Assembly (NCBI GenBank): GCA_947166905.1
Contig: CAMVFZ010000001.1
Span: 124,001-188,000 of the forward strand
From: an uncultured Prevotellaceae bacterium
GTDB lineage: Bacteria; Bacteroidota; Bacteroidia; Bacteroidales; UBA932
Length of the DNA stretch: 64,000 nucleotides
Direction of reading: 5' to 3'
Part shown: positions 4,259 through 37,499 of the stretch, piece by piece
How the letters are laid out: every line of letters starts with the position of its first letter
Position numbering within the stretch: the first letter of the stretch is position 1
Position numbers and translations under genes: made by a program
The notes under the pieces: model-generated
The model's database searches: none
The model's input: only the letters and a program-made list of their open reading frames with translations
What the model was told of the DNA's origin: nothing

Positions 4259-4316
4259 CAGTATTTGGCGCCTAAACACATAGTTTCTAGATATGGAGCA
4301 CTCTCCACTTTAATGG

Positions 4317-4342
4317 GATTGCCGATCAGGTCGGCAATGACG
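4317..4342. repeat. Palindromic element, copy A (degenerate)
   Basis: ATTGCCGA-TCAGG-TCGGCAAT (4318-4338) followed by GACGA. This is the reverse orientation of the GTCATGCCC..GGGCATCTCC family found at 21931, 23765, 33019 and 34531. The preceding TTAATGGGATTG closely resembles the flank of the copy at 23765. Confidence 0.6.
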
Positions 4343-4369
4343 AAAAAGGGAGAGCCCGAAGGCTCTCCC
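4343..4369 (-). terminator. Rho-independent terminator of the 55-residue protein gene
   Basis: Perfect 9-bp stem GGGAGAGCC / GGCTCTCCC (4348-4356, 4361-4369) with a four-base loop, followed on the minus strand by a T5 run (4347-4343). It lies 35 nt past the stop of the small minus-strand gene, which supports that gene being transcribed. Confidence 0.75.
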
Positions 4370-21922: not shown

Positions 21923-21930
21923 GTCTTTCC

Positions 21931-21958
21931 GTCATGCCCGACCTGATTGGGCATCTCC
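21931..21958. repeat. Palindromic element, copy B
   Basis: GTCATGCCCGACC-TGATTGGGCATCTCC type: ATGCCC and GGGCAT arms around a 9-nt centre, with conserved GTC before and CTCC after. Same orientation as the in-gene copies at 33019 and 34531. Confidence 0.7.
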
Positions 21959-21994: not shown

Positions 21995-22127
21995 TGCTTC
22001 ATAGCATCCATTTTGGTCGAAAGAGCAATCGTCAACTTTGGTTTTCGGAAGAGATCGCAAAATTAATCAGCATGTGAAATGATTTGGCACATTCAAGAGC
22101 TATCTTTGCGCTTGTGATCAAGTTCTC

Positions 22128-22144
22128 GCTGTTTGCAAAACAGC
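22128..22144. promoter_or_regulatory. Palindromic operator candidate before the two-gene module
   Basis: GCTGTTT-GCA-AAACAGC, a perfect 7-bp dyad that covers the -33 TTTG of the promoter at 22132-22164. Its location fits a repressor site, possibly for a product of the module itself. Confidence 0.5.
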
Positions 22145-22164
22145 ACATATTTTTTTTATTTTTG
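22132..22164 (+). promoter_or_regulatory. Promoter of the PD-(D/E)XK two-gene module
   Basis: TTTG (22132-22135), a 21-nt spacer, TATTTTTG (22157-22164). ATG follows at 22192. A second possible -7 (TATCTTTG, 22101-22108) lies upstream with poor -33 spacing. Confidence 0.55.
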
Positions 22165-22191
22165 TAATACTCACATTTAACATTAAAGACT

Positions 22192-22830
22192 ATGGCAATC
22201 ACCGATGATTTGCAGTTGGTGTTCACGCAATATTGCAACACCTACAAAGAAATCTTCCAGGACTTCAAGCCCTGGATTGGGACAAAAAGGACAATCAACG
22301 AAGCCAACCAAGTCCACCACTTTCTTGAGGCCTATAAGGCCATATTTCCCGGCATCATCACCTGGATGGAACTCCCCATTCATGATAGAAAAGAACCAGA
22401 TTGTAAAGAAAATGTCACAGATAGTATTTCAAAGAGCAAGGCTTACACCGCAAGAATAGACGGATTTATCCTTTCACAGGTGCAGAAGCGCATCATTTTC
22501 ATCGAAGCCAAACGCTTCTCCCGCGAGAATAAAGTAGAAAGCCTGAAAGAAGACGCCATTCGCATAAAAAGAATCCTAGACAAGATCTTCAATGAAGACG
22601 AAGGCAAATTGAAGAGTCTGGACCTCGACCAATATGAAGTAGCCACACTCTTCCTTGCAGATGCATGGGACAAAAAGCCGGAAATAGTCAACCATTTAGA
22701 TAAGCACCTAAAAGAGCTCGAAGTAGAGGGGCTAACACGGATTGATAAAAGTGAACCCTGTTCTATAGGAGAAGGCTACCACCTGATGTACAGACTAATG
22801 GAGTATTCACCTAAACCCTGCAAGAAATGA
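22192..22830 (+). CDS. Unrecognised protein with PD-(D/E)XK nuclease-like core
   Basis: 212 residues, no signal peptide or membrane helix. The pattern E60 (TWMELP), D90 (ARIDGFIL) and E105-A-K107 (RIIFIEAKRF), followed by a helix rich in K/R/E (SRENKVESLKEDAIRIKRI), fits the alpha-beta-beta-beta-alpha core of restriction-like nucleases. It belongs to no family I can name. The stop overlaps the next start (ATGA, 4 nt), making a tight two-gene operon with its own promoter, operator-like dyad and terminator. Base composition is visibly more AT-rich than the flanking housekeeping genes, suggesting transfer. A defence, nuclease-regulator or toxin role is possible but unproven. Confidence 0.55.
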   Translation: MAITDDLQLVFTQYCNTYKEIFQDFKPWIGTKRTINEANQVHHFLEAYKAIFPGIITWMELPIHDRKEPDCKENVTDSISKSKAYTARIDGFILSQVQKRIIFIEAKRFSRENKVESLKEDAIRIKRILDKIFNEDEGKLKSLDLDQYEVATLFLADAWDKKPEIVNHLDKHLKELEVEGLTRIDKSEPCSIGEGYHLMYRLMEYSPKPCKK

Positions 22831-23420
22831 CAATCCAAGAAGTAGAGGCCCACAAGAACAACCAGGGCTATAATATCGATTATATTCTGGAGAAGTACCA
22901 CTTCCAGCGTAACCATTGGACTGTCCCTTCTCCTGTTCCATGGGCAGAAACTGAAGGTGATGAAGATGATGTAGAAGAAGCAAAAAAAGCCGATGCCTGG
23001 TCCAATAACCGCCGCACCACCGGAATTAAATCCGATGCAGACTTTTACCAGCTCCAGGTAGAGAGGTATAAAAAGGTCATCATGATAAACGAGAAGCCCC
23101 GCCCGGACGCCAAAGCTATTGCCGTACAGGTCTATGCCTGGCTCAAAGCTCAGCCCGATGGTATTGAAATCTCTACCTACGATGCAGTAAATAAGGCACT
23201 CGGCTTAACCTGGACTCAATACGATGACATTAAGAAAAGGAACCTATGTTTTTATGGAGGCCTCATATTAGATGAGCAAGACTTCTACTGCATCCATGAC
23301 TACCTCCTCGGCAAAATCCACATGGGCCATAAGTATGAAGCCGATTTCTCCTCAAAATACGAAGGCCAAAACGTCGGCCTTCCATACAATATCCCATTCG
23401 TCTTCAAAAAAAGTAGCTAA
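22827..23420 (+). CDS. Unrecognised partner protein of the nuclease-like gene
   Basis: 197 residues, soluble. Three visible parts: an N-terminal segment (1-50) ending in an acidic stretch (EGDEDDVEEAKKAD); a central segment (about 70-140, KAIAVQVYAWLKAQPDGIEIS..AVNKALGLTWTQYDDIKKR) whose helix spacing is compatible with a winged helix; and an aromatic C-terminal domain (about 140-197). It overlaps the nuclease-like gene by 4 nt, so the two products probably act together. I do not recognise the family. The central part could bind DNA at the 22128-22144 dyad (speculative). Confidence 0.5.
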   Translation: MTIQEVEAHKNNQGYNIDYILEKYHFQRNHWTVPSPVPWAETEGDEDDVEEAKKADAWSNNRRTTGIKSDADFYQLQVERYKKVIMINEKPRPDAKAIAVQVYAWLKAQPDGIEISTYDAVNKALGLTWTQYDDIKKRNLCFYGGLILDEQDFYCIHDYLLGKIHMGHKYEADFSSKYEGQNVGLPYNIPFVFKKSS

Positions 23421-23430
23421 ACACAAAAAA

Positions 23431-23466
23431 GACTCCAACGGGTAGCCCTTTGGAGTCAATTTTTTT
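23431..23466 (+). terminator. Rho-independent terminator of the two-gene module
   Basis: GACTCCAA / TTGGAGTC stem with an 11-nt loop and a T7 run (AATTTTTTTA), 11 nt after the stop codon. Confidence 0.85.
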
Positions 23467-23541
23467 ATGCTCTGTCATCTGATAGAGCTTCTATCAAACA
23501 TATGGAACTATGTATTAGTCTCAATACAGATAGAAGGCTAA

Positions 23542-23649
23542 CGCCACCAGCTAGCAAACTTGCTAGCGAGAGCCCAGAGCCGATGGAAACGTCCGGAACT
23601 GCCGCTTGTATTTGAAGATATGCCCAAACAGGAGCTGAACGACATTTAA
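23542..23649 (+). pseudogene. Possible C-terminal remnant of a lost gene
   Basis: A 35-codon open stretch, bounded by stops and without a start, encodes a protein-like tail (..ANLLARAQSRWKRPELPLVFEDMPKQELNDI). No continuation is found upstream in any frame. It also contains the 8-bp dyad GCTAGCAA-AC-TTGCTAGC (23550-23567). It may be debris of an earlier accessory gene; chance is not excluded. Confidence 0.25.
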
Positions 23650-23764
23650 CTATAAGTCAAAAAGCTTTTGTTGAATTGAAATCTTTCCGTACCATTGTAC
23701 TGCGACCCGTGTGTCCCTAAGTAATCAAACATACGGGGTTAGTCTTTTAAGGCGGGCATTAAAT

Positions 23765-23818
23765 GAGATTGCCGATCAGGTCGGGCCTGACGAGGATGGT
23801 AATGGTCGGGCATGATGG
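23765..23818. repeat. Palindromic element, copy C plus half copy
   Basis: GAGATTGCCGATCAGG-TCGGGCCTGACG (23765-23792) is the family in reverse orientation; a second half unit, GGTCGGGCATGATGG (23804-23818), follows. The segment ATTAAATGAGATTGCCGATCAGGTCGG is very close to the flank and core of copy A at 4312-4334. Confidence 0.6.
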
Positions 23819-23865
23819 AAAATAGCTCCCTTAGTAGGAGTTCGAAAAAGATTTCAACTTATTGT

Positions 23866-23902
23866 AAAACAGTATCCCAGGTACCTGAGATACTGTTTTT
23901 TG
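23866..23902. terminator. Bidirectional terminator near the 3' end of the Rpn gene
   Basis: AAAACAGTATC / GATACTGTTTT stem around a 12-nt loop, with a T6 run on the plus strand and a T4 run on the minus strand. It lies 33 nt past the Rpn-family stop. Confidence 0.75.
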
Positions 23903-23934
23903 GTCATTGCCAACTTATTTAAAAATTGGCTTTA

Positions 23935-24786
23935 CTATAAAGATTGAATATCTTCTTCCGATAAACCTGTACAACTAGCAATAATTGCCTTATCTATTCC
24001 CTTTTCAAGCATAGCTTTGGCAATCTCATTCTGCGCCTCCTCCCTGCCTTCCAGGCGGGCGTAGGAGATGTAATTCCGGATATCGCGTTCAGTTGTCATG
24101 TCCTTTTCGTATTTTGACTTTTCTTCTGGTGCGAAGTTAGTGATTTCCGCCGATTCAAACAATAATTTGAAGATTTCTTCCTTCAGTTCCGCCGGACGGC
24201 TTGTCATGGTTTCCATATTTCTCAGCGCATAGCAGAAGTTCTCAAGCACAGTTGCGTCCGGTTGTAACGCATTCTTGCAGTTTGGTAATTCCAGAAAAAT
24301 ATACTGCAGATGCTCCGTCATAATCTCATCCGAGCAATCACGCTTCAACAGATATCGGAACTTTACTTCATCAGAATCCTTATGCAGGGAAAAGTCCATC
24401 AAGCCGATGAAATAGACTGTCGGGAAAGCATAATCTCCAGAATTCCCTGATTCCAACTGCTGCTGAATGCCGAAGGTGGAATAGAACACAGCCCGGTCAT
24501 AGAAACTTATCTGCCTTGCGACCTGCATCTCTACGATGAAACGGGAGCCATCGGCATCCGTGCATTCAACGTCGATGCGGATATCCTTTTTGTCTGGAAA
24601 GGGGCTGATATGTTCCTTGTTAACATACGTGAGGTTCGTGATCTTTCTTTCCGGGATCAGTTCTTCCAGAAAGAGTTGCAGGAGGCGTTTGCGTGGTTCT
24701 TCGCCGAAGGTTCTCTTGAACCAGTAATCCATAATGATTCTGGCGTAACGCCCGACCATTGGGCGTTGTTGCATAGTGTTATCCAT
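23935..24786 (-). CDS. Rpn-family PD-(D/E)XK nuclease (recombination-promoting nuclease / 'transposase')
   Basis: 283 residues; MVGRYARIIMDYWFKRTFG (an internal Met at residue 10) is where family similarity begins, so the true start may be there. Active-site pattern: D near KKDIRIDVECTD and E-x-Q in RFIVEMQV, the Rpn signature. The family tail LEGREEAQNEIAKAMLEKGIDKAIIASCTGLSEEDIQSL-type segment is present with the normal final helix-turn-helix-like repeat. Rpn proteins are DNA nucleases that stimulate RecA-independent recombination, occur in variable multicopy sets and may serve in defence. Bounded by shared repeats (see findings). Confidence 0.88.
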   Translation of the reverse strand: MDNTMQQRPMVGRYARIIMDYWFKRTFGEEPRKRLLQLFLEELIPERKITNLTYVNKEHISPFPDKKDIRIDVECTDADGSRFIVEMQVARQISFYDRAVFYSTFGIQQQLESGNSGDYAFPTVYFIGLMDFSLHKDSDEVKFRYLLKRDCSDEIMTEHLQYIFLELPNCKNALQPDATVLENFCYALRNMETMTSRPAELKEEIFKLLFESAEITNFAPEEKSKYEKDMTTERDIRNYISYARLEGREEAQNEIAKAMLEKGIDKAIIASCTGLSEEDIQSL

Positions 24787-24820
24787 AAAAAATGTCCGAC
24801 CGCATTAGAGAGGCCGGACA
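24787..24820 (-). terminator. Terminator between the GH92 gene and the Rpn gene
   Basis: On the minus strand TGTCCGGCC / GGTCGGACA stem (one G:T pair) with a 10-nt loop and T6, the T run touching the annotated Rpn ATG at 24786. It ends the glycine-cleavage/GH92 transcript. Confidence 0.75.
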
Positions 24821-24899
24821 CAAATATATATTACAAAAACTGCCGGAAAACGAAATGTTGCTCGAGTCGCGCAAAGTTTTGAGAAATCTTTATAAAATA

Positions 24900-24936
24900 T
24901 TTACAATGTTTATGATTCGTCAACTTGAGCACTATT
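24900..24936. repeat. Dispersed motif, copy 2 (with 4821-4858)
   Basis: TTTACAA, a 3-nt variable gap, TTATGATTCGTCAACT, then TGAGCACTATT. It matches the first copy at about 33 positions. Its right end overlaps the GH92 stop codon (24932-24934). Confidence 0.65.
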
Positions 24937-27112
24937 TCATTTCAAATAGGAGGTCGGCGCCGGAGCGGATGTCGTCATAGGTGATGGTGGTGCCTTTGAG
25001 GCGGTGGCCGTTGAGGTATACGGCTTTGACGTAGACATGATCGGGGCTCCAGTTCTTGGTGCGGACGGTGAGGGTGCCGCCGTCGGAGAGCCTGACGGTT
25101 ACGCCGGGAAGGCAGGGAGAGCCGAGCTCGTACTTGTTGCTGCCGGGGCAGAGGGGATAGAAGCCAAGGCAGTTGAAGATGTACCAGGCGCTCATCTGGC
25201 CGCAGTCATCGTTTCCGCTAAGGGCATCGGGAGTGTTGCCGTAGAAGTTATCGGCAACGTAGCGAACCCATTTCTGGCATTCCTGTGGCTTACCCAGTTT
25301 ATTGTACAGGTATAGTACATGATGGCAAGGCTCGTTGCCGTGCCAGTATCCGCCTATACGGCCCCAGATATCGTGGGCGCCGGGGATATCGTCGCTCATC
25401 TCAATCTTGAACATATTGTCAAGACGGTCTGTGAGGAACTTCTTGCCGGCAATAGCCATATAATCTTCAAAGGCGTGAGGAACTGTCCAGGTGTACTGGA
25501 GGGTGAAGCCCTCGGTGATATCTCCCCAGCCGTTGTCAGAACCGGGACCTTCGTAAGCGATATCAGAGAAAGGCGTACGCCAGGCACCCTTGGAATCGCG
25601 GCCACGCATATACTTGGTCTCAGGATCAATCAGATTGCGGTAGTTCTGGCTGCGCTTAAAGAAGAACTCATAATCTTCATCGTGACCCAGAAGCTTTGCG
25701 GCCTGGGCGATGCACCAGTCGTCGTATGCGTATTCCAAAGTCTTGGAAACGGACTCCAGCTCCTTGTCAAACGGTACGTAGCCAAGTTCTGTATACTCCG
25801 GCAGGCAGTCATAGTGAGGGTTGGTAGCCGTAGCCTTCATAGCCTGGAAGGCGCGCTCGTAATCAAAGCCCGGAACGCCCTTGACCATCATGTCGGCCAG
25901 AACGGAAACGGCGTGATAGCCAATCATACACCAGGTTTCACCGCCGTAGAAGCTCCATATTGGCAGCATATGCTCCGTGCTCTTGTCGTAATGCTCCAGC
26001 ATAGAGTTGGCAAGGTCTGCCTGCAGCGGCTTGTTCACAAGGTTGAGAAGAGGATGAAAGGCCCTGTAAGTATCCCAAAGAGAGAATGTGGTATAATTTG
26101 TAAAGTCCTTTGCCTGGCCGATGGTGCCGTCGTGAGCGCGGAAGCGCCCGTCTACGTCCTGGAACAGGAAGGGATGAAGGGCAGTGCGATAAACGCTGGT
26201 ATAGAAGGTCTCCTTGTCCTTTTGGCTGCATGAAGAATCAACCTCATAGCGGGAGAGTTCTGCTTCCCAGGCGGCCTCGGCCTCGCTGCGGACGGCCTCG
26301 AAGCTCTTGCCATCCAGCTCTGTAAGGTTGCGAAGGGCTCCATCGGTACCGGTGGCGGAAACAGCCACCTTTATATCTACCTGCTGGCCTTCCGTAGTCG
26401 GGAAGAAAACGCAGGCCTTGATGTCTTTGCCCCAGGCTTCTTTGCTGCTGCGGAAACGGCTGGTGTTGTAAATTACCGGCTTTCCTTCCTTAAAGATGGT
26501 AAGGTCTTTGACCGGCTGCGAAAAACGGGCGGCAAAGTAAACGTAACGGTTTGGATTCCAGCCGTTTACAAGCTTGCTGCCAACAATTGTATAATCATCA
26601 ATCTGGCGGACGGAAGACCACACGCACTTCCATCGGAGAGTGTGGTTAAGGTCTATTACTACCATCGATGTATCGCGGGCGGGATAGGTAAAACGGAGGA
26701 TTCCGCTGCGGGCGGCCGCCGTAACCTCTGCCTTTACGCCATAGTCTGCAAGGTCTACACTGTAATATCCGGGATGGGCTTCTTCTTTGTCATGGCTGAA
26801 GGCCGACGGTTCCATGCCGGGGGCAAACATAAAATCGCCCAGATCCGGGATGCCCGTGCCGCTGAGATGGGTAAGGCTGATGCCCATGATGGAAGCCCTG
26901 GAATACTTGTAACCGGCAGCGGTATCATAATCGTAATCATCGGTATCCGGACTGATCTGAATGCCTCCGAAGGGCACCTGGGCGCCGGGATAAACATTGC
27001 CGAAGCCGGCCGTTCCCACGAAGGGATTAACGTACTGGATATGGTTCTGAGCAAATGCACTGATGGCAAGGGAAGCCATCAGTGCTATGCAAACTAAGCG
27101 TATTTTCTTCAT
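24932..27112 (-). CDS. GH92 alpha-mannosidase, exported
   Basis: 726 residues. Signal peptide MKKIRLVCIALMASLAISAFA precedes the GH92 opening YVNPFVGTAGFGNVYPGAQVPFGGIQISPDT. Other blocks: GYKYSRASIMGISLTHLSGTG, FTNYTTFSLWDTYRAFHPLL, and the C-terminal GNDDCGQMSAWYIFNCLGFYPLCPG with the calcium- and acid/base-region residues. It is a calcium-dependent inverting exo-alpha-mannosidase acting on N-glycans or yeast mannan. It starts 4 nt after the lpd stop, so it is the last gene of the glycine-cleavage operon, an unusual place. No SusC/SusD pair is nearby. Confidence 0.93.
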   Translation of the reverse strand: MKKIRLVCIALMASLAISAFAQNHIQYVNPFVGTAGFGNVYPGAQVPFGGIQISPDTDDYDYDTAAGYKYSRASIMGISLTHLSGTGIPDLGDFMFAPGMEPSAFSHDKEEAHPGYYSVDLADYGVKAEVTAAARSGILRFTYPARDTSMVVIDLNHTLRWKCVWSSVRQIDDYTIVGSKLVNGWNPNRYVYFAARFSQPVKDLTIFKEGKPVIYNTSRFRSSKEAWGKDIKACVFFPTTEGQQVDIKVAVSATGTDGALRNLTELDGKSFEAVRSEAEAAWEAELSRYEVDSSCSQKDKETFYTSVYRTALHPFLFQDVDGRFRAHDGTIGQAKDFTNYTTFSLWDTYRAFHPLLNLVNKPLQADLANSMLEHYDKSTEHMLPIWSFYGGETWCMIGYHAVSVLADMMVKGVPGFDYERAFQAMKATATNPHYDCLPEYTELGYVPFDKELESVSKTLEYAYDDWCIAQAAKLLGHDEDYEFFFKRSQNYRNLIDPETKYMRGRDSKGAWRTPFSDIAYEGPGSDNGWGDITEGFTLQYTWTVPHAFEDYMAIAGKKFLTDRLDNMFKIEMSDDIPGAHDIWGRIGGYWHGNEPCHHVLYLYNKLGKPQECQKWVRYVADNFYGNTPDALSGNDDCGQMSAWYIFNCLGFYPLCPGSNKYELGSPCLPGVTVRLSDGGTLTVRTKNWSPDHVYVKAVYLNGHRLKGTTITYDDIRSGADLLFEMK

Positions 27113-27116
27113 TATA

Positions 27117-28478
27117 TTATGCGCTGTGGGCGGCGGACTGAAGGACCTCGCCCAGTGTGGGATGAGCGTGAATTATCTGCTGGAATTCGTCCAAGGTGGC
27201 CTTGCGGTTCATCAGGGCGGCGATTTCCTGGACAATGTCTGCGCTGTGGGCACCGAAGAGATGGCAGCCCAGAATCTGGCCGGGAGCATACCCAGAAGCG
27301 CCTTCGCCGGCAACGACCAGCTTCACGAAGCCTTCCGGCTCGTTCATAGAAAGGGCCTTGCCGTTTGCGCGGAAGAAAGACTTCAGGCACTTGACAGGTA
27401 CACCGGCAGCCTTGAGCTCGTCCTCCGTCTTACCCACGGTAGCAGCCTCCGGGTTGGTGAACACTGCGGCCGGAACAATGCCGAGGTCGATATTGCAAGG
27501 CTCTCCAACCATAGCGGCCAGAGCCTTAAGGCCCTGGAAAGTAGCCACATGGGCCAGCATATAACCGCCTGTTACATCGCCGATTGCATAAATGCCGGGC
27601 ACATTGGTGCGCATATCCTTGTCTACCACAATGCCCTTGGGAGTGAACTCCACGCCGGCATCGGCAAGATTGATTGCATTCACGGAAGGCCTGCGGCCGA
27701 CAGCCATCAGAACTTTATCTGCCATTATCTCAAATGTCTGCTCTTTCTTGACGTAGGTGACCTTGAGGCCATCGGCGGTCTTTTCAATTGACTGCACACC
27801 GGCCGATGTCTCTATCTCTATGCCGCGCTTGCCAAGGGCCTGCTTAAGCCTTTTTGCAAGGTCGGTGTCGAAGCGGGGAAGTATCTCTTTGCAGAACTCG
27901 ACCACCTTGACCTCAGATCCGAAACTTTTGAAAATGGATGCGAATTCCAGGCCGATGACACCTGCTCCAATCACGCAAAGTCTCTTTGGAACTTCCTGAA
28001 GGTCAAGTATTTCCCTGGATGTAATAACATCTGCGAGGTCTGCTCCCGGGATGGGCAGAGAGGCCGAATAAGAGCCGGTAGCGATGATAATGTTGTCGCC
28101 AGTAATCTCTTCTCCGTTAACTACAACGGTCTTTGCATCCTTGAAGGAAGCCTTGCCGTGTATTAGGGTAATGCCTTTACCGCCAAGCAGGAATTCCACG
28201 CCCTGACGCAGCTGGCCAACGACCTCGTTCTTGCGGGAAACCACTTTCCCGAAGTCAAAATTGTAGCTGAGATTTTCTACGCCGAAGACCTCTCCGCAGG
28301 CCAGATCTTCCAGGACCTCTGCGTTGCGGCAGAAGCTCTTGGTGGGGATGCAGCCCTCATTAAGGCAGGTTCCGCCAACAGGACCGTCAGAGATTATTAC
28401 TACCTCGATTCCTTTCTTTGCAGCAGCCACGGCGGTCTCATATCCGCCCGGACCGGCACCAATAATTATCAGTTTCAT
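27117..28478 (-). CDS. lpdA: Dihydrolipoyl dehydrogenase (glycine cleavage L protein)
   Basis: 453 residues from MKLIIIGAGPGGYE; an upstream in-frame extension is not conserved. FAD-binding GxGxxG at the N-terminus, redox-active pair in GGTCLNEGCIPTKS, NAD-binding GAGVIGLEFA, FAD-phosphate AIGDVTGG, and the dimer-interface His-Glu block (IIHAHPTLGEVLQ) at the C-terminus. It reoxidises the dihydrolipoyl arm of GcvH, reducing NAD. Located 61 nt after gcvPB in the operon, so it is probably the dedicated L protein. Confidence 0.94.
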   Translation of the reverse strand: MKLIIIGAGPGGYETAVAAAKKGIEVVIISDGPVGGTCLNEGCIPTKSFCRNAEVLEDLACGEVFGVENLSYNFDFGKVVSRKNEVVGQLRQGVEFLLGGKGITLIHGKASFKDAKTVVVNGEEITGDNIIIATGSYSASLPIPGADLADVITSREILDLQEVPKRLCVIGAGVIGLEFASIFKSFGSEVKVVEFCKEILPRFDTDLAKRLKQALGKRGIEIETSAGVQSIEKTADGLKVTYVKKEQTFEIMADKVLMAVGRRPSVNAINLADAGVEFTPKGIVVDKDMRTNVPGIYAIGDVTGGYMLAHVATFQGLKALAAMVGEPCNIDLGIVPAAVFTNPEAATVGKTEDELKAAGVPVKCLKSFFRANGKALSMNEPEGFVKLVVAGEGASGYAPGQILGCHLFGAHSADIVQEIAALMNRKATLDEFQQIIHAHPTLGEVLQSAAHSA

Positions 28479-28539
28479 TATTATTTTCTCATTAAAACAA
28501 ATGTTTGCCGCCATACGACGGCAAACATTCATTCAAAAA

Positions 28540-29955
28540 TTACTGATCTCCGTACTTCAGGATGGGCTGACGGGCAGCGGTGGTTTCGTCGGGACGGCGG
28601 ATAGGCGTATTGTGAGGAGCATTGCGCAGGATCATGGGATCTGCGGCAGCCTCGTCGGCAATACGGCGCATAACGCCGATGAACTCGTCGATAGTCTCCT
28701 TGCTCTCTGTCTCTGTAGGCTCGATCATAAGGGCCTGATGGAAGAGCAGCGGGAAATAAATCGTAGGAGCGTGGAAACCGAAGTCAAGCAGACGCTTTGC
28801 AACGTCCAGAGTGGTGGCTCCGTGGCCATCCTCTGCCTTGTCGGCGCCGTCATTAATCAGGCCGTCATATACAAACTCATGCTTGCAAATGGACGGAATC
28901 GGCAGTTTATACTTATCCTTAAGACATTCCTTGATGTAGTTTGCACTGAGGGTGGCGAACTTGCCGGCAAACTTGATATTCTGCCTGCCAAGAGCCAGGA
29001 TGTATGCATAAGCACGCAGGATAACGCCGAAGTTGCCGTTGAAACCGGAAACGCGGGTCTCAGGAAGGAACTTGGCGAGATGCTGTGCAACACCGACAGG
29101 ACCGCTGCCGGGACCGCCGCCGCCGTGAGGCGTGCTGAAGGTCTTGTGAAGGTTCAGGTGCATGATGTCGAAGCCCATATCGCCTGGACGTACAACGCCA
29201 AGCAGAGGGTTCATATTGGCACCGTCGTAATAAAGCAGACCGCCGCACTCGTGAACAAGGGCAGCAATCTCCTTGATTTCCTTCTCGAATAGGCCCAGAG
29301 TGTTGGGGTTGGTCATCATAATACCTGCAATCTCAGGGCCGAGGAGGGGTTTAAGGTCCTCTACGTCAACCAGACCGTTGGCATTGGACTTAACCTCAAC
29401 AATCTCAAGACCGCAAACTGCAGCGCTGGCAGGGTTGGTACCGTGGGCGCTGTCCGGAACGATAACCTTTGTACGGGCAAGGTCACCGCGGCTCATGTGG
29501 TACTGACGCATGATCATAAGACCGGTCAACTCTCCGTGAGCGCCTGCACAAGGCAGGAAGGTGAAGTGGGCCATACCGGTAATTGCGGCAAGAGCCTTGT
29601 CCATGCCCTCATAAACAGCAAGCGCACCGGGAACGGTGGATGCAGGCTGCAGAGGATGCAGGCCATTGAATCCGGGGATAGCGGCAATCTCTTCGTTAAT
29701 CTTGGGATTGTACTTCATAGTACAGCTGCCAAGCGGATAGAAACCGGTATCCACACCGAAGTTCATCTGGGAAAGATTGGTATAGTGACGTACAACATCA
29801 ATCTCGCTTACCTCCGGGAGCTCGGGTGCCTGGGCACGCTTGAGACCTTCGGGGAGTTCGCAGCAAAGGCATCGGCCATATTCGTTCTCAGGAAGAGAAT
29901 AACCGGTACGGCCGGGCTTTGAAAGCTCAAATATAAGTTTATCGTAGTACTTCAT
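28540..29955 (-). CDS. gcvPB: Glycine dehydrogenase (decarboxylating) subunit 2
   Basis: 471 residues. It contains the PLP lysine in LNLHKTFSTPHGGGGPGSGP, the GTNPASAAVCG loop and the N-terminal FGVDTGFYPLGSCTMKYNPK. With GcvPA it forms the two-chain P protein that decarboxylates glycine and transfers aminomethyl to GcvH. It starts 2 nt after the gcvPA stop, supporting stoichiometric expression. Confidence 0.96.
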   Translation of the reverse strand: MKYYDKLIFELSKPGRTGYSLPENEYGRCLCCELPEGLKRAQAPELPEVSEIDVVRHYTNLSQMNFGVDTGFYPLGSCTMKYNPKINEEIAAIPGFNGLHPLQPASTVPGALAVYEGMDKALAAITGMAHFTFLPCAGAHGELTGLMIMRQYHMSRGDLARTKVIVPDSAHGTNPASAAVCGLEIVEVKSNANGLVDVEDLKPLLGPEIAGIMMTNPNTLGLFEKEIKEIAALVHECGGLLYYDGANMNPLLGVVRPGDMGFDIMHLNLHKTFSTPHGGGGPGSGPVGVAQHLAKFLPETRVSGFNGNFGVILRAYAYILALGRQNIKFAGKFATLSANYIKECLKDKYKLPIPSICKHEFVYDGLINDGADKAEDGHGATTLDVAKRLLDFGFHAPTIYFPLLFHQALMIEPTETESKETIDEFIGVMRRIADEAAADPMILRNAPHNTPIRRPDETTAARQPILKYGDQ

Positions 29956-29957
29956 AG

Positions 29958-31286
29958 CTATACCTCCTTTACAAGTGCAACCAGGGCGTCAATCTCTGCC
30001 TTGGTGCGTTTTTCCGTTACACAGAAGCTTACGTAGCCTTCTTCTGTCTGAAGGGCTGCGAAGAAACCGCCATCAAGGAGTTTCTGCTGCAGCTTTTCTA
30101 CAGAAACAAGAGGCTTGAGCACGAATTCCTTAAGGAAAGGAACGCCGGGGAATACTTCCTGGAACTTGCCGGTAGCCAGCAGTTGGTCATGCAGATAGTG
30201 CGCACCTGCATAGCTGAGACCGTTCACCTTCTTGAGGCCTTCGGGGCCCATCAGAGAGGCGTAAACGGTTACCCAAAGGGCCATAAGGCTCTCGTTGGAG
30301 CAGATATTGCTGGTAGCCTTCTCCCTGCGGATGTGCTGCTCGCGGGCCTGGAGCGTAAGCACGAAGCAACGCTTGCCGTCGGCGTCAACTGTCTGGCCTA
30401 CGATACGGCCGGGCATCTTGCGAACATAGTCCTTGCGGCAGGCCATGAAGCCAACGTAAGGGCCACCGTAGCAAAGAGGAATACCAAGGGGCTGGCCGTC
30501 GCCGACTGCAACGTCGAAGTCCCACTCGCCCGGAGTCTTGATAACTGCAAGGGCAGAAGGATCGCAGTACTCTACGACGATACCCTTGGCCTCGTGTACA
30601 GCCTCTGCAAAACCGGTGTAATCCTCTATGATACCATAGCGATTGATAGCCGGGACGATGATACCTGCAACGTCACCTGCCTCAAGCTCCTTGCGGAGGC
30701 TTGCAAGGCTGGTACGGCCATTCTCCATCTCTATGTAGCCCAGAGGGTTGCCATAGAATTTGGAGTAAGTCTCAACAACCTTAAGGACGTTGGGAAGGAG
30801 TCCTTTGGAAAGGAGCACGCGGGGTTTCTTCTTTGCGCAGGCGATAGCCATGCGCACAGCCTCTGCGGCGGCGGTAGGACCGTCGTACATAGAGGCATTG
30901 GAGATATCCATACCAGTAAGCTTGCATATAGTGCTCTGGTACTCAAAGATATAGCGCAGTGTTCCCTGGGAAATCTCTGCCTGGTAAGGAGTATAGGCAG
31001 TGATGAACTCAGACCTCTGGGTGAGGTAAGGAATCACTGAAGGAGTATAGTGGTCATAAGCACCGGCGCCGACGAATACCTTAAGTTTGGCATCCTTGGC
31101 GTCAAGGCCGGCGAAGAAGTCGCGGACCTGCTGCTCTGACATTGCATCCGGGAGGTCGTACTCGCCCTTGTAGATGTAATCCTGCGGAACATCGGCATAA
31201 AGGTCTTCAAGAGACTTTACACCGATTTTGTCCAGCATTGCACGGATATCATCCCCGGTATGAGGAAAATATGCGAAACCTGCCAT
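29958..31286 (-). CDS. gcvPA: Glycine dehydrogenase (decarboxylating) subunit 1
   Basis: 442 residues from MAGFAYFPHTGDDIRAMLDKIG, the standard start; a 16-residue extension would overlap gcvH and is rejected. Family blocks: FVGAGAYDHYTPSVIPYL, YTPYQAEISQGTLRYIFEYQS, TLQAREQHIRREKATSNICSN. The subunit is catalytically paired with GcvPB. The start lies 1 nt after the gcvH stop. Confidence 0.96.
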   Translation of the reverse strand: MAGFAYFPHTGDDIRAMLDKIGVKSLEDLYADVPQDYIYKGEYDLPDAMSEQQVRDFFAGLDAKDAKLKVFVGAGAYDHYTPSVIPYLTQRSEFITAYTPYQAEISQGTLRYIFEYQSTICKLTGMDISNASMYDGPTAAAEAVRMAIACAKKKPRVLLSKGLLPNVLKVVETYSKFYGNPLGYIEMENGRTSLASLRKELEAGDVAGIIVPAINRYGIIEDYTGFAEAVHEAKGIVVEYCDPSALAVIKTPGEWDFDVAVGDGQPLGIPLCYGGPYVGFMACRKDYVRKMPGRIVGQTVDADGKRCFVLTLQAREQHIRREKATSNICSNESLMALWVTVYASLMGPEGLKKVNGLSYAGAHYLHDQLLATGKFQEVFPGVPFLKEFVLKPLVSVEKLQQKLLDGGFFAALQTEEGYVSFCVTEKRTKAEIDALVALVKEV

Positions 31287-31287
31287 T

Positions 31288-31665
31288 TTACTCGGTTGCT
31301 TTGGTGTATGCAGCTGCATCCATAAGAGCGTCAAGCTCTGACTTGTCGCTCATCTTAACCTTGATAATCCAGTTTGCGTATGCGTCGTTGTTGATGAGCT
31401 CGGGCTCGTCCTCAAGGGCCTCGTTAACCTCAACTACGGTTCCTGATACAGGAGCAATGAGGTCGCTGGCTGCCTTAACGCTCTCAAGTGCGCCGAAGTC
31501 TTCACCTGCGGTTACATCGTCATCAACATCGGGAAGGTCTACATAAGTAATGTTACCCATTTCTTTCTGAGCGAAGTCAGAAACACCAACAACGGCGATG
31601 TCGCCCTCAACTTTTACCCATTCGTGTGACTCGCTGTAAAGGAGTCCTTCAAGTACTTTTGACAT
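31288..31665 (-). CDS. gcvH: Glycine cleavage system H protein
   Basis: 125 residues. Lipoyl domain with the modified lysine K64 in GALESVKAASD and the family start YSESHEWVKVEGDIAVVGVSDFAQ. It shuttles the aminomethyl group between P, T and L proteins. The lipoate ligase gene in the same operon would load its lysine. 25 nt from gcvT. Confidence 0.97.
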   Translation of the reverse strand: MSKVLEGLLYSESHEWVKVEGDIAVVGVSDFAQKEMGNITYVDLPDVDDDVTAGEDFGALESVKAASDLIAPVSGTVVEVNEALEDEPELINNDAYANWIIKVKMSDKSELDALMDAAAYTKATE

Positions 31666-31690
31666 AGTTTTATTATTTTGATTTGATTAA

Positions 31691-32794
31691 TTATTTCTTG
31701 TATCTGGTCTGATAAAAACGCTTCTTGACAACCTTGCCGGGGAATACTCTCTTGCGGATGCGGATCCAAAGCGGAGTATCCAGAGCGGCATAAGCCTTGT
31801 CTACAAGGGCGAAGCAAATGCTCTTGTCAAGTGAAATTGAGTGGTAACCGGTGGTAACAACGCCAACCTCGGTGCCGTCCTCAAGTTCTACGGGATAACC
31901 GGCACGCGGAATAGCCTTGTCCTCGATCTCTATACCGACAAGCTTCTTGGCAATCTCGCCGGCCTTCTGGGCAGCAAGGGCCTCTTTGCCGATGAACTCG
32001 TCCTTTTCCATCTTGCAGAACAATCCAAGGCCTGCCATAACAGGGCTGATATCTGCAGAAAGCTCGTCTCCGTAAAGAGGAAGACCAGCCTCGAAGCGAA
32101 GGGTATCACGGCAACCCAGACCGCAGGGCACTACGCCTGCAGCAAGAAGTTGCTTCCAATAAGCTATTGTCTGCTCCGGTGTGGCATAAATCTCAAAACC
32201 GTCTTCTCCGGTGTAACCGGTACGGCTGGCGATTACGCGCTTGCCTGCAACCTCATAGTTGCGGAAGGTATAGAAGCCAAGGTCTGCAACTTCCTTGAAG
32301 CCAAGAACTTCCATAACAGTCTTCTCTGCATCCGGACCCTGGACTGCAATCTGGCCCCAGAGGGGTGACTGGTTGTCAACGACAACATCGAAGCCTGCAG
32401 CCTGCTCTTTCATCCATGCAACATCCTTGTCGATGTTGGCTGCATTGATAACCAGGAGGTATTTATTGGGCTCGAACTCTTTGTAAACAAGAAGGTCGTC
32501 CACCGTGCCGCCATCGGGATAAAGCATCATTCCGTAAAGCACCTGGCCGTCTGCCATGCCGCGGATGTCGTTAGTAAAGATGTGGTTTACATATTTCTCT
32601 GCCTCTTTGCCGCTGATGAAAACCTCTCCCATGTGGGATACATCGAACATACCTACCGCATTACGCACTGCAAGGTGCTCGGTAGTGATGTCGCTGTACT
32701 GAATAGGCATCATAAAGCCAGCAAAAGGGCTCATTTTTGCTCCCAGCTCAACGTGGCTGTTATAGAGCGGAGTAATTTGAAGATTCTCTTCCAT
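31691..32794 (-). CDS. gcvT: Glycine cleavage system T protein (aminomethyltransferase)
   Basis: 367 residues. Blocks MSPFAGFMMPIQYSDI, VGMFDVSHMGEV (with the folate-site Asp) and ASRTGYTGEDGFEI are intact, as is the C-terminal beta-barrel (ISLDKSICFALVD). It transfers the one-carbon unit to tetrahydrofolate, releasing ammonia. It starts 2 nt after the lplA stop. The absence of an intergenic leader leaves no room for a glycine riboswitch here. Confidence 0.95.
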   Translation of the reverse strand: MEENLQITPLYNSHVELGAKMSPFAGFMMPIQYSDITTEHLAVRNAVGMFDVSHMGEVFISGKEAEKYVNHIFTNDIRGMADGQVLYGMMLYPDGGTVDDLLVYKEFEPNKYLLVINAANIDKDVAWMKEQAAGFDVVVDNQSPLWGQIAVQGPDAEKTVMEVLGFKEVADLGFYTFRNYEVAGKRVIASRTGYTGEDGFEIYATPEQTIAYWKQLLAAGVVPCGLGCRDTLRFEAGLPLYGDELSADISPVMAGLGLFCKMEKDEFIGKEALAAQKAGEIAKKLVGIEIEDKAIPRAGYPVELEDGTEVGVVTTGYHSISLDKSICFALVDKAYAALDTPLWIRIRKRVFPGKVVKKRFYQTRYKK

Positions 32795-32796
32795 AA

Positions 32797-33888
32797 TTAT
32801 TTGGTTATTTTATTGTTTTGCTCTGCCGATGGGAACATAATGCGCAGCAGGTCCTCCCCCGCCAGGCCAAGTATTCCCAAGTCTTTATTTTTCAACGCAT
32901 TGCCGATGGCATCCTTTTCCAGCGGCAAACCTTTGACTGCAGCCTCAAGCGCCTTTGACGCTTCTCCGGTCTGAAAAAAATCGCCCTCCAGGCCGACGCT
33001 TTCTATGACGGGGCTACCGTCATGCCCAACCTGATCGGGCATCTCCTTCCCTAACCCGACGTTTACCTTGACCTCTCCCACGCCCTCTACGCGGCCGCCA
33101 AAGGACACGCTGTAGCTGTGATGCTTGCCCTCCAGGAAGTCAGGATCAAGGTAGGCCTGTTCCAGTCGGTCTATCTCTGCCATATCGGAATCGGACAGCA
33201 CAATCTGGTCCAGTTTTCCATTGTCATCGGTGCAGAAGAACTTGATAAGATGATTCTTAAAAGCCTCCAGGCCAACGGGATGGCCGGCAGCTTCCAATTC
33301 TTCCTTTAAGTTAGTCACGTGACTGCGAACGGAATCGACGCCTTTGCTGCTGATTTTGCCTGCCGACGGAGTGATGGCTTTCTGAAGAGCCTCGAAGTCT
33401 ACATCATACATCATCGTTCCGTGGACGATGCTGCCCTTCGGCAGAAGGGTGAAGGCGTTGCCGGATACCTTGCGCCCGCCAATCATAACATCGTTGCGGC
33501 CCGACTTTTCCGCCGGCACGCCAAGGCGGCGCAGCGCAAGGGCCACAAGGTTCAGGAAGCGGCTGAATGTGAAGGCGACATCAGTATTATCGCAGACGTA
33601 TGACAGCATCACATTGCCCATATCGGCATACACGCAGCCGCCACCGCTTTTGCGTCGGAAAAATTTGATGTCGTGGGCTTTGCAATAAGAGAGGTTGACC
33701 TCTGCCTCCATGACCTGATTGCGGCCGAAAATGACAGTGGGAGGCACCTGCCAGAGGAAGAAAGCTTCGCGTTCCCCGATAGCCGAAGGCGGCACAAGAG
33801 CGGTCAGGTTAGCTGCGACGAATTCTTCCATCGCCAGATACCAGACAAGCCTTCGCTGAGTGTTTTGGGGTAAAGCTATATGCTTCAT
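32797..33888 (-). CDS. lplA: Lipoate-protein ligase A with an in-frame repeat insertion
   Basis: 363 residues. Catalytic domain blocks: FGRNQVMEAEVN, RRKSGGGCVYADMGN (lipoyl-AMP binding), GRNDVMIGGRKVSGNA with the conserved lysine, and HGTMMYDVD. A C-terminal accessory domain begins about residue 250. Residues 281-290 (KEMPDQVGHD) are encoded by a palindromic repeat (33019-33046). They interrupt a predicted beta-hairpin between VKVNVG and VIESVGLEGDFF, lengthening the protein. It ligates lipoate to GcvH and other lipoyl domains. First gene of the gcv operon, with its own -7 element at 33912-33919. Confidence 0.92.
   Translation of the reverse strand: MKHIALPQNTQRRLVWYLAMEEFVAANLTALVPPSAIGEREAFFLWQVPPTVIFGRNQVMEAEVNLSYCKAHDIKFFRRKSGGGCVYADMGNVMLSYVCDNTDVAFTFSRFLNLVALALRRLGVPAEKSGRNDVMIGGRKVSGNAFTLLPKGSIVHGTMMYDVDFEALQKAITPSAGKISSKGVDSVRSHVTNLKEELEAAGHPVGLEAFKNHLIKFFCTDDNGKLDQIVLSDSDMAEIDRLEQAYLDPDFLEGKHHSYSVSFGGRVEGVGEVKVNVGLGKEMPDQVGHDGSPVIESVGLEGDFFQTGEASKALEAAVKGLPLEKDAIGNALKNKDLGILGLAGEDLLRIMFPSAEQNNKITK
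33019..33046. repeat. Palindromic element, copy D, inside lplA
   Basis: GTCATGCCCAACC-TGATCGGGCATCTCC type, forward orientation on the plus strand; read on the minus coding strand it gives residues 281-290 of LplA without breaking the frame. Confidence 0.75.
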
Positions 33889-33911
33889 TCTACCTCTTAA
33901 TAATTATCCCT

Positions 33912-33919
33912 CAAAGATA
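33912..33919 (-). promoter_or_regulatory. -7 element for the lplA-gcv operon
   Basis: TATCTTTG on the minus strand, 23 nt upstream of the lplA ATG. A short C4/G4 hairpin (33941-33954 region) lies just upstream, at the 3' side of the preceding gene. Confidence 0.5.
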
Positions 33920-33960
33920 ATTAAAAAGATTGCAATTTTCCCCTTTTTCGGGGATAAAAA

Positions 33961-34695
33961 TTACAAATTTTCACAAAGTGAAAGCAGAACGTGGTTAGTC
34001 CGATTATTAAGGGCGAAGTCTTCCTCTCCGCCGCACTTGTTTGCAGGCAGTTCGCCGCAGATATCTATGCCCAGAATGCGGGTGCCTTTTATGCTTTCCA
34101 GAACCTGTTTCATGGTATCCAGAGTCATAGTTCCCTGGTCCCAGTCGGTAGAGGCATAGCCCCTGGCCAGGACGTCTTTGTCAATAGAAATATATAGAGG
34201 TTCCTGAAGGGCCGACAGCCAGGATTTCAGCTTTTCCGGGATATTGGTTTCTTCCCTTGTAAACACTGTCACCCTGCCCGGAAAACCCGCGGTCTCCCCT
34301 GCCAGGGACGGATCTATTCCAACTATCAGAACCTTGTTCAAATATGGATTCTCCTGGAGCATCTTGCGCACCCATCCGCCGCAGCTCAGTATATTTCCAA
34401 AAGCCGGTTCCTGCATATCCGGATGGTTATCCAGAAGCAGCAGGTTAAAGTTTTCCGTAAGCGCGGCGCAGTGCAGGGCCGTCACATAGTGATAGTCGCC
34501 GGAATCGATGAAATTGAGCCCGACCGCCCCGTCATGCCCGGCTACGACCGGGCATCTCTTCCTTATCGCCTCCTGCGCAGCGTCATCGCAATAGCAGGAG
34601 GTGCCTTCTATGGACCTAAGGTCAAGATATTCCGCCCCCTCCGGAAACGTGTATTCCCGTTCACGGTACACTCCAGAGAAGTCAAGAATTCTCAT
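33961..34695 (-). CDS. Arginase/agmatinase-family (ureohydrolase) protein with in-frame repeat
   Basis: 244 residues. Manganese-site motifs: H69 in SGDYHY, D89-x-H91-x-D93 in LLDNHPDMQ, and D172-x-D174 in YISIDKDVL, followed by GMTL-like TMTLDTM. The size is below that of classical arginases (about 300), as for uncharacterised Bacteroidetes members, so the substrate (arginine, agmatine, formiminoglutamate or other guanidines) is open. Residues 46-55 (ending RCPVVAGHD) come from a palindromic repeat (34531-34558) lying between a helix and the GLNFIDSG strand. The start overlaps the upstream SUMF1-like stop (TAATG). Confidence 0.8.
   Translation of the reverse strand: MRILDFSGVYREREYTFPEGAEYLDLRSIEGTSCYCDDAAQEAIRKRCPVVAGHDGAVGLNFIDSGDYHYVTALHCAALTENFNLLLLDNHPDMQEPAFGNILSCGGWVRKMLQENPYLNKVLIVGIDPSLAGETAGFPGRVTVFTREETNIPEKLKSWLSALQEPLYISIDKDVLARGYASTDWDQGTMTLDTMKQVLESIKGTRILGIDICGELPANKCGGEEDFALNNRTNHVLLSLCENL
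34531..34558. repeat. Palindromic element, copy E, inside the ureohydrolase-family gene
   Basis: GTCATGCCCGGC-TACGACCGGGCATCTC type with a slightly different centre. Same orientation and same frame relative to the host gene as copy D, giving a peptide ending in AGHDG (compare VGHDG in LplA). Confidence 0.75.
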
Positions 34696-35978
34696 TAGAG
34701 GGCGATTCTAAAACCGAAGGTGCTCTTTATATTGATTTTAGGGACCTCGGTGCGATTGCTAACCGTGCAGGCAGAGAAGGGGCTGGCTGCGCTTCCTCCG
34801 CGGATAACGCCCTCGTTCACCCACTCCCAGGCATTGCCGCTCATATCGAAGAGGCCAAGTTGGTTGGGCAGAAGTGTGCGTACGTTTGCCGGGGCTCCCT
34901 TATCTGAATTGTCGATGTTGACTGCAACAAAACGGGCAAAGTTGCTGCCGCTGAAAGGCTGGTCCAAATCTTCCTGACCACCGCGGGCGGCATACTCCCA
35001 TTCAGCCTCTGAAGGCAGACGGAAAGCACGTCCAGTGCGCTGGTTAAGCTTTACTATGAATTCCTGGGCACGATACCAGGAGACATTGACAACAGGCCTG
35101 CGGAGTTCATTGGGATAGTTTCCGATGGGGAGATAGCCCATCACTTCCTGCCAAAGACCGGCGGTAACTTCTTCTTGTGCTATTTCAAAGTCTTCTACTG
35201 TAACGTCCTTTACGGGGAGCTCGTTCTTGCCGCCCTTACCGGTGCGGTCCCCCATACGGAAGGTGCCACCCTTGACGGCCTTCATTGTAATGACCTCGCT
35301 GCCGACGTTTATGGTCTCATCGGCACAAACGTGTTCGCGGGCGACGTTGCCCTCATAAGCCTGTGTGTATTCCACCGGGGCCTTGTGACCGGTAATTACG
35401 GCTACACGGAAGCCAAGAGTGCCGGCTTTTACGGATCCGGGGGTGGCGTTGCGCGTAGTTCTTGTGCGCACTACGTTATTGGTAGTGCCTTCTTTGAAAA
35501 GACCGCCGACCCACTCGGAAAGGTTGCTGGTTGGCTTGATAATGCCGGTATAAACGGCGTGCTCGTAGTTGAGTTCCGGAACAAGGATAAAGCGGATTCC
35601 GATATTCTTTGAGAGTTTATTTGCAAATGATTCGCAGTCGCTTACTGTTACATCGGTCACGGGAGAGTCAGGGTTCTTGACCTGGGAGGGGTTATTTCCC
35701 ATAACAGCCTCCCAAAGAGCCTGGCTTACAGGTGTTTCCATGATTGCGTAGCAATCCAGGAAGGCCTCTGTAAAGTTCTCTGCGCCCTCTACTTTACGGC
35801 CGCTGGTCAACATTCCGTATGTAAAGAAGCCGCCATCGGACAGTTTCATATTGAAGGTGACGTCACCTACGGTATAAGAGTTGTTTACATCTACGATTTC
35901 AGGGTAGGAAGGGCCGCCGCATGCGGCTGTGAAAATTGCTGTGGCTACAATGGCCAAGGTGCTTATAAACTTGTTCAT
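34695..35978 (-). CDS. Lipoprotein with two SUMF1/FGE-like domains
   Basis: 427 residues. Signal MNKFISTLAIVATAIFTAAC has a lipobox (C20). The N-terminal unit (about 50-205) is a degenerate formylglycine-generating-enzyme-like domain (ETPVSQALWEAVMGNNPSQ, ending GTLGFRVAV). The C-terminal unit (about 235-427) is more complete (GGTFRMGD, EEVTAGLWQEVMG, RLPSEAEWEYAARGG, MSGNAWEWV, FGFRIAL). The active-site cysteine pair of true formylglycine enzymes is not evident, so these are probably structural or binding SUMF1 domains, common in Bacteroidetes surface lipoproteins. It has its own -7 (35998-36005) and is coupled to the ureohydrolase gene. Confidence 0.82.
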   Translation of the reverse strand: MNKFISTLAIVATAIFTAACGGPSYPEIVDVNNSYTVGDVTFNMKLSDGGFFTYGMLTSGRKVEGAENFTEAFLDCYAIMETPVSQALWEAVMGNNPSQVKNPDSPVTDVTVSDCESFANKLSKNIGIRFILVPELNYEHAVYTGIIKPTSNLSEWVGGLFKEGTTNNVVRTRTTRNATPGSVKAGTLGFRVAVITGHKAPVEYTQAYEGNVAREHVCADETINVGSEVITMKAVKGGTFRMGDRTGKGGKNELPVKDVTVEDFEIAQEEVTAGLWQEVMGYLPIGNYPNELRRPVVNVSWYRAQEFIVKLNQRTGRAFRLPSEAEWEYAARGGQEDLDQPFSGSNFARFVAVNIDNSDKGAPANVRTLLPNQLGLFDMSGNAWEWVNEGVIRGGSAASPFSACTVSNRTEVPKINIKSTFGFRIAL

Positions 35979-35997
35979 ATCAATCGTCTAATTACGA

Positions 35998-36005
35998 CAA
36001 ATATA
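35998..36005 (-). promoter_or_regulatory. -7 element for the SUMF1-like lipoprotein gene
   Basis: TATATTTG on the minus strand, 19 nt upstream of the ATG at 35978. Confidence 0.5.
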
Positions 36006-36037
36006 GTCAATAAGTACGGATTTCTAGAGATTTTTTG

Positions 36038-36045
36038 TATTTTTG
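36038..36045 (+). promoter_or_regulatory. -7 element for the DUF3943 gene (near-leaderless)
   Basis: TATTTTTG ending 8 nt before the ATG at 36054, predicting a leader of only a few nucleotides. Divergent from 35998-36005. Confidence 0.45.
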
Positions 36046-36053
36046 CCGAGTCC

Positions 36054-37499
36054 ATGAGGAAAATTTGTATAATATTTCTGTTTGCGCTGACTTGTTTCAA
36101 CCTGTCGGCACAGACTGCATTTCCTACCGACAGCGTAAAAAAAAGGCCCTGGACCGCCGCCGCTTACACATTGGTCTTGAACGGAGGAGTTTGGGCATAC
36201 GACAGGTATATCACAAAGTCCGAGTTCGCAGAGATTTCCTACTCTACAATGAAGAGCAACGTCAAGACAGGCTTTGTCTGGGACAGTGACCGCCTGGCCA
36301 CCAACCACCTGGGACATCCCTACAACGGCGGACTATACTTTCTTGGCGCGCGCAGTTGCGGGCTGAATTATTGGCAGTCACTTCCTTACGCCACAGCCGG
36401 CAGCCTACTTTGGGAACTATTTGCAGAAAAAGAGCCCCCGGGCCTCAACGACCTTATTGCCACTCCCCTTGCAGGAGCCGCCTTCGGCGAGGTTTTCCAC
36501 CGCACATCCAACTACATTTTGGATGACAGGACCCGTGGCCCGGAGCGTATAGCACGCGAAGTAGCCGCCGCAGTTATCAACCCGGTAGGCTTTGTAGACA
36601 GAATACTGACCGGCAAACTCTGGAAGTCCAACACCTCCGCCGTCTACGACGCCGACCGCATCCCCCTTAGCCTAACCGTCTCCGCCATCGACAGATTTAT
36701 GTCCGACGGCGCCGATGTCACCCTGGGCCACCACTACCCCTCCCTTCAGATCGATTTGGAGTACGGAGATGCCATGGATGCTTCTGAGAACAGGCCTTTC
36801 GACTATTTCTTTGGCAGCACTACGATGCATCTGGGTTCCAGCAACACCCAGCCGCTGTTTTGCGATATCAATATCACCGGCCGCCTTTGGGGCCGCGAGA
36901 TTGAGACCGGCAGCGATGACTCGGAGGCGGTATTTGGTATCTGGCAGCAATACGACTTCTACCATACCCGTAGCGCCCGCGAGGACGAAGACAACCCCAT
37001 TTTCAACTTCTCTGAAACCGTTGCCGCAGGCCCCGGAATAGTATTCCGCCAGACAGGAAATAATACCGTTTTCCATCAAGCCCTGTTTGCCGATGTCATC
37101 GGCCTTGGAGCAGTGGAAAACAGCAATATCTTCATTATAGAAAGACACTACAACATGGGCAGCGGCTTCGCCCTCAAGTCACTGTCTTCCTTGAGGTTAT
37201 GGAATCGCGTAAGCCTTTCTTTCCAAGCGAAGCTCTTCTACCTCAATACCTGGGGAGACTACACTAGCCGCGATGACGTTGCAGCCGGCTTGCTTGATCC
37301 CCTTTATACGGACACGATGGGAGACAAGAGTTATTCGTGGGCCTTCGTCCTTTCTCCCACCCTTAGGGTTAACGTAGCTAAGCACTGGGGTATCACACTT
37401 TCTGCCAGCCGCCTTGGCCGCGATTCCCACTACAAATCCTTCCCGGACTCCAAAGCCCGCACCACAGACGTAAGATTCGGAATCTACTACAACTTATAG
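36054..37499 (+). CDS. DUF3943 outer-membrane protein
   Basis: 481 residues. Signal peptide MRKICIIFLFALTCFNLSAQ. The DUF3943 block occupies about 75-175: NHLGHPYNGGLYFLGARSCGLNYWQSLPYATAGSLLWELFAEKEPPGLNDLIATPLAG-type sequence, then RIAREVAAAVINPVGFVDRIL. The rest (about 200-481) alternates amphipathic strands with aromatic ends and finishes TTDVRFGIYYNL, a beta-barrel signature. Role unknown; an outer-membrane location is likely. A shared terminator with the convergent DUF4332 gene follows. Confidence 0.85.
   Translation: MRKICIIFLFALTCFNLSAQTAFPTDSVKKRPWTAAAYTLVLNGGVWAYDRYITKSEFAEISYSTMKSNVKTGFVWDSDRLATNHLGHPYNGGLYFLGARSCGLNYWQSLPYATAGSLLWELFAEKEPPGLNDLIATPLAGAAFGEVFHRTSNYILDDRTRGPERIAREVAAAVINPVGFVDRILTGKLWKSNTSAVYDADRIPLSLTVSAIDRFMSDGADVTLGHHYPSLQIDLEYGDAMDASENRPFDYFFGSTTMHLGSSNTQPLFCDINITGRLWGREIETGSDDSEAVFGIWQQYDFYHTRSAREDEDNPIFNFSETVAAGPGIVFRQTGNNTVFHQALFADVIGLGAVENSNIFIIERHYNMGSGFALKSLSSLRLWNRVSLSFQAKLFYLNTWGDYTSRDDVAAGLLDPLYTDTMGDKSYSWAFVLSPTLRVNVAKHWGITLSASRLGRDSHYKSFPDSKARTTDVRFGIYYNL

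Follow-up and report, generated by a model that had tools for sequence, protein, structure and literature searches.

Results

Palindromic elements in two neighbouring genes

The window, by which we mean the whole 64-kb stretch of DNA that was analysed, carries on its minus strand a lipoate-protein ligase gene, lplA, and a gene of the arginase/ureohydrolase family, each with a short palindrome, here classified as a REP, within its reading frame. The features concerned are as follows.

4313..4343, minus strand: fourth REP copy, intergenic, with the tail CCCA in place of CTC (40.7 bits)
21930..21957, plus strand: third REP copy, intergenic, found by pattern and covariance model
23763..23793, minus strand: degenerate fifth copy (17 bits); no ORF of at least 100 aa at the site
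32797..33888, minus strand: lplA, lipoate-protein ligase with insert, 363 aa (PF21948, 1.1e-53)
33018..33045, plus strand (antisense to the gene): REP type A in lplA, encoding (K)EMPDQVGHD(G) (47.3 bits); not in orthologues
33046..33050, plus strand: CTTCC after the tail of the lplA REP, an extension of the element or a target preference
33961..34695, minus strand: arginase/ureohydrolase-family gene with insert, 244 aa (PF00491, 2.6e-10)
34530..34558, plus strand (antisense): REP type A with a perfect 8-bp stem in the arginase-family gene, encoding (K)RCPVVAGHD(G) (50.1 bits)

The initial annotation had reported the same 28-bp palindrome in both genes, with the same orientation to the host and the same reading frame. 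Both palindromes are real and near-identical, but the lplA copy is 27 bp long (GTCATGCCCAACCTGATCGGGCATCTC) with one mismatched stem pair, while the copy in the arginase-family gene has 28 bp (GTCATGCCCGGCTACGACCGGGCATCTC) and a perfect 8-bp stem. The shared orientation was confirmed, both genes lying on the minus strand and both REPs antisense to them. The shared frame holds for the right arm only (GHDG); the left arms (K-EMPD versus K-RCPV) are read in different frames because the loop of the ureohydrolase copy is 1 nt longer.

In 100 dinucleotide shuffles of the window, the expected count of the palindrome pattern was 0.00. A covariance model added two copies (4313-4343 and the degenerate 23763-23793, both on the minus strand) to the three found by pattern; two of the five copies are in frame within genes and three lie outside recognised genes. 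Rfam gave no relevant match in window positions 20000-36500.

Architecture and types of the element

A genome search located the copies, and the DNA surrounding them was then analysed. Twenty-four copies from this genome (G000) and its sisters align as a (C/T)GTC head, an 8-bp stem, a 5-6-nt loop and a CTC tail. The head is present and unpaired in all 24 aligned copies, the eight stem pairs begin with AT and the first two are invariant (AU, then UA), and the loop has 5 nt in about half of the copies and 6 nt in the rest. Paired bases fill 99% of the stem cells, 25 cells show compensatory change, and changes fall at three of the eight pairs. The covariation score of the stem was matched by none of 500 shuffles and was lost once the partners were slid. 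A second type with an internal loop, type B (GTCATTTCGACCGTAGTGGAGAAATCTC), coexists with type A. Elements were called by an arm-complementarity rule; an MFE filter misses type B copies with their internal loop. The pairs that we looked at, in hutU, truB, rdgB, the GH97 gene and addB, are all head-to-head dimers with their tails outward. The tail is followed by TTCC in 30 of 100 classified copies, against a background of 2.7%.

Some G061 genes (loci L193, L200, L217, L222 and L225) also contain tandem arrays of half REPs, with head halves such as GTCATTTCGACCGG, which are read as low-complexity sequence, for example CHFDRT or VISSSSS.

Distribution in the clade

With the covariance model, 46 copies were counted in this Bacteroidales genome of 2.1 Mb, and 59, 18, 25 and 8 copies in its relatives RGIG4399 (G061), hRUG909 (G062), RUG205 (G063) and RUG11933 (G064), respectively, compared with 0, 0, 1, 1 and 5 copies in five other members of the genus. 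These data show an expansion of the REPs confined to one clade of uncultured Bacteroidales. Order-wide counts with a loose pattern indicated weak enrichment in most genomes, and no claim is based on them.

In-frame copies genome-wide

Approximately 21 of the 51 copies examined in this genome (about 41%) lie in frame within some 15 genes. Hosts with one copy are lplA, the arginase-family gene, sod, citC-citG, citX and the genes for an AddB-type nuclease, a glycosyltransferase, a ferredoxin-domain protein and a SAM methyltransferase, while two copies each occur in hutU, truB, rdgB and the genes for a PG_1098-type methyltransferase, a TrmB-type methyltransferase and a GHMP kinase. The hosts belong to recognisable protein families. 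Copies were assigned to genes from the coding score on either side of the element and from Pfam matches, with orthologues as further evidence in several genes; citX and both copies in the PG_1098-type methyltransferase gene failed the two-flank coding score and were assigned by family match and orthologue. REP-bearing proteins in sister genomes include MetG, PurD, MiaA, PotA, UDP-glucose dehydrogenase, ManA and a gyrase/topoisomerase IV A subunit. In addition, RNA-modification and tRNA-related genes (truB, miaA, trmB-type, metG) recur as hosts in G000, G061 and G062.

In-frame insertion with empty orthologous sites was shown, with both orientations and several frames in use. Compared with solved structures, for example, RdgB carries about 20 inserted residues, and its sites are empty in G005 and G023. 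The genome-wide search and tabulation that the initial annotation had suggested revealed presence/absence variation between sister species, though no orientation bias: among confidently intragenic copies of the sampled genomes, 19 run along the gene and 19 opposite to it, and nearly all frames are used. These counts rule out an orientation or frame rule, and the arrangement shared by the two window copies is therefore not general behaviour. Type B copies are found in the VIS-frame 12 times where 5.1 are expected, an excess that is not independent evidence because tandem arrays count several times.

Insertions in LplA and the arginase-family protein

The LplA peptide is a clean 11-residue insertion. 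The nearest orthologues (77%, 77%, 69% and 56% identity) have a gap there, the peptide is missing from every aligned orthologue spanning the site, and the solved structure 1vqz likewise has a gap. The clean gap looked for by alignment is therefore present in close and more distant relatives alike. In the predicted structure of LplA (mean pLDDT 84.5), residues 281-293 make up the turn that joins strand 271-280 to strand 294-302, in agreement with the beta-hairpin loop proposed at the outset; pLDDT drops below 50 at residues 286-289. Orthologues of lplA that lack the repeat already have TTC at the corresponding place.

For the arginase-family protein, more distant members of the genus have a shorter sequence at the REP site. 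The site is filled by REP-like sequence in all four close relatives, though by a different one in each: the same type with an 18-bp duplication in G063, several type B units in G061 and, as assigned by eye, a degenerate type B unit in G062 and an apparent one, oppositely oriented, in G064. In the predicted structure of the ureohydrolase (confidence 94.1 overall), the weakest block is 51-60, between a helix and strand 60-65. As judged from these models, the loop position is shown for LplA; the lowest-confidence block of the ureohydrolase is consistent with the loop also proposed for its peptide, but less sharply.

Different repeats at the same site

In several genes, sister species carry different repeats at the same site. 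The hutU site is empty in G063 and G064, whereas G000 has a type A dimer, G061 a type B dimer plus tandem units, and G062 a single repeat of another type; the left boundary GCAAA-GAGAT is common to the three filled genes. In the gene for a GH97-type alpha-galactosidase, G061 has a type B dimer and G062 a type A dimer, and their outer boundaries are identical (CCCTTCR-GAGATT ... ATCTC-CTTCCGC) while the interiors differ. G000 and G063 have no recognisable repeat in this gene, and the repeat-free orthologues have TTC at the corresponding place. The miaA gene holds type B in G061 and type A in G062, and addB and citC-citG likewise have different repeats at the same site between sister species.

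The truB gene has two such sites. At the first, G061 and G063 are empty, G000 has a type A dimer and G062 another type, and the left boundaries differ. At the second, G061 and G062 have REP dimers and G000 has an unrelated hairpin repeat. A truB dimer adds a net 12 residues for about 61 bp and seems to have replaced some sequence, so that not every case is a simple insertion.

The unrelated repeat is about 75 bp long, has three predicted hairpins (GGCCGTAGGGGTTTGGGGGAGTGTCTCCCCCAGTATAGACA...) and lies in frame within genes, where it encodes RPEAVGVWGSxSPSID. It occurs in truB (L102) and in an AddA-like ORF (L315) of G000 and in an HU-domain-like ORF of G061 (L217/L316); in truB it occupies the site taken by REP dimers in sister species.

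Discussion

CGTC-tagged REPs were defined by Di Nocera, De Gregorio and Rocco in 2013 in five phyla including Bacteroidetes (PMC3733652). They consist of an unpaired CGTC (or TGTC/CCTC) head, a stem of 8-9 bp that opens with an A-T and then a T-A pair, a loop of 4-5 nt, with other lengths in some species, and a short, unpaired tail which in most but not all cases fits CCA (PMC3733652). Head-to-head dimers predominate among their pairs, no dedicated transposase was found, and units are known within genes, including tRNA pseudouridine synthase genes, although most are intergenic (PMC3733652). Moreover, two Xanthomonas recB genes carry different REPs at about the same site, and the Rickettsia elements RPE-4 and RPE-6 belong to CGTC-4 and CGTC-1, respectively (PMC3733652).

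The elements described here agree with this plan in their head and 8-bp stem starting with AT, as well as in their head-to-head dimers, intragenic units and lack of an adjoining transposase. Their loop of about 5 nt and short unpaired tail match it less clearly: many copies have a 6-nt loop, and the tail is CTC(C) rather than the CCA of most CGTC REPs, with one window copy ending in CCCA. They differ further in the large intragenic share noted above. Like RPE-4 and RPE-6 as described, they are short palindromes that add peptides in frame to protein genes, but the host is an uncultured Bacteroidales bacterium with relatives from ruminant guts and not an intracellular alphaproteobacterium. They resemble the GTAG REPs associated with RAYT transposases in their hairpins, dimers and intragenic cases, but have a CGTC/TGTC head and no adjacent RAYT. 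We conclude that the elements are CGTC-tagged REPs. The Rickettsia-like in-frame insertion postulated in the initial annotation is borne out by the gaps in orthologues and the empty sites (LplA, RdgB, HutU, GH97), but it is not new in kind, and the suggestion that such elements were undescribed fails, as CGTC REPs had been reported from Bacteroidetes and include RPE-4 and RPE-6 (PMC3733652). No account of CGTC REPs within Bacteroidales genes came up in a literature search that covered few subscription journals. The less expected part of our results is the recurrent use of the same gene sites by different repeats.

Very probably, the CGTC-tagged REPs multiplied in this clade as selfish repeats, and those inserted in frame into surface loops of gene products survived. 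The REPs would behave as non-autonomous elements that insert between genes as well as into them, copied by an enzyme acting in trans or by hairpin-driven template switching. Insertions keeping the frame in surface loops would survive and leave dozens of enzymes with REP peptides, some 10 residues long or, at sites that have grown into a head-to-head dimer or a tandem array, longer; these peptides would be translated and roughly neutral. Sister species retain repeats at corresponding sites of several genes, and the hairpins fold with z of about -2 to -4, which might instead be taken to mean that selection maintains the repeats within genes as regulatory RNA hairpins or for a useful peptide. However, between sister species the repeat at a given site varies in type, orientation, frame, length and dimer state, empty sites are frequent, and we consider selection of this kind very unlikely. 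The genomes in question all seem to have been assembled from metagenomes, and the repeats might then be artefacts of assembly or binning, but the same sites are filled in assemblies from separate studies (RGIG4399, hRUG909 and RUG205) and the frames are intact, which leaves such an artefact only the slightest chance.

The shared sites could have arisen in two ways that are about equally likely. One is a single old insertion whose inner sequence was later exchanged in place, through template switching or gene conversion involving REP types with common GTCAT and ATCTC ends; sisters would then differ in type and not in position. This account, to which we give close to an even chance, is favoured by the identical outer GH97 boundaries in G061 and G062 and by the hutU left boundary shared between the type A repeat of G000 and the other types of G061 and G062. 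It fits poorly with the differing left boundaries at the first truB site and with the unrelated repeat class of G000 at the second, and repeated hits on permissive loops would also yield shared positions. The other is that there are few tolerant loops, or a short target in which the tail comes to lie beside TTC or TTCC, and that the types arrive independently, for which we put the chances at even. The unrelated class in truB agrees with this, as do the excess of TTCC after the tail and the TTC in repeat-free lplA and GH97 orthologues, whereas the exact GH97 boundaries would need two hits on the same nucleotide. The TTCC/TTC pattern thus hints at a target preference, TTC having been looked at in two repeat-free sites, which are too few to conclude. 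More tentatively, such sites may be 'slots', that is, fixed loops of housekeeping enzymes in which REPs are gained, dimerised, expanded and, from one sister species to another, replaced by other repeat types, with boundaries that are sometimes nucleotide-exact. Slots, if true, would point to an active replacement mechanism rather than to rare random insertion.

Rickettsia provides the best-known cases of palindromes inserted in frame, and genome decay may be one reason why they are tolerated there. The Bacteroidales clade studied here, with ruminant-gut relatives, is densely populated with such insertions, and its sister genomes include orthologous sites with and without a repeat, so that the movement of CGTC REPs, their target choice and their tolerance by enzymes become directly testable. 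For annotators, short peptides such as VIPGLTGNL, RFPVKPGMT, EIPDQVGND or CHSDRSGGIS in Bacteroidales proteins can be repeat DNA and not conserved sequence.

Mobilisation by a RAYT was considered and rejected: PF01797 genes exist, but none of the three in this genome has an adjacent CGTC REP, no mobilising enzyme was found among them, and other repeats flank PF01797 genes. One PF01797 (Y1 transposase-like) gene of this genome is flanked by a repeat containing CGGCGACAC, which three times also lies beside CGTC REPs between genes, once within the window (21965-21973); the loci of this repeat are L243, L104 and L109 and the window position. Another PF01797 gene, at the end of contig 3 of G000 (L245), lies between imperfect inverted repeats of its own (GGATAGCGCAGA...CTGCGCTATCC).
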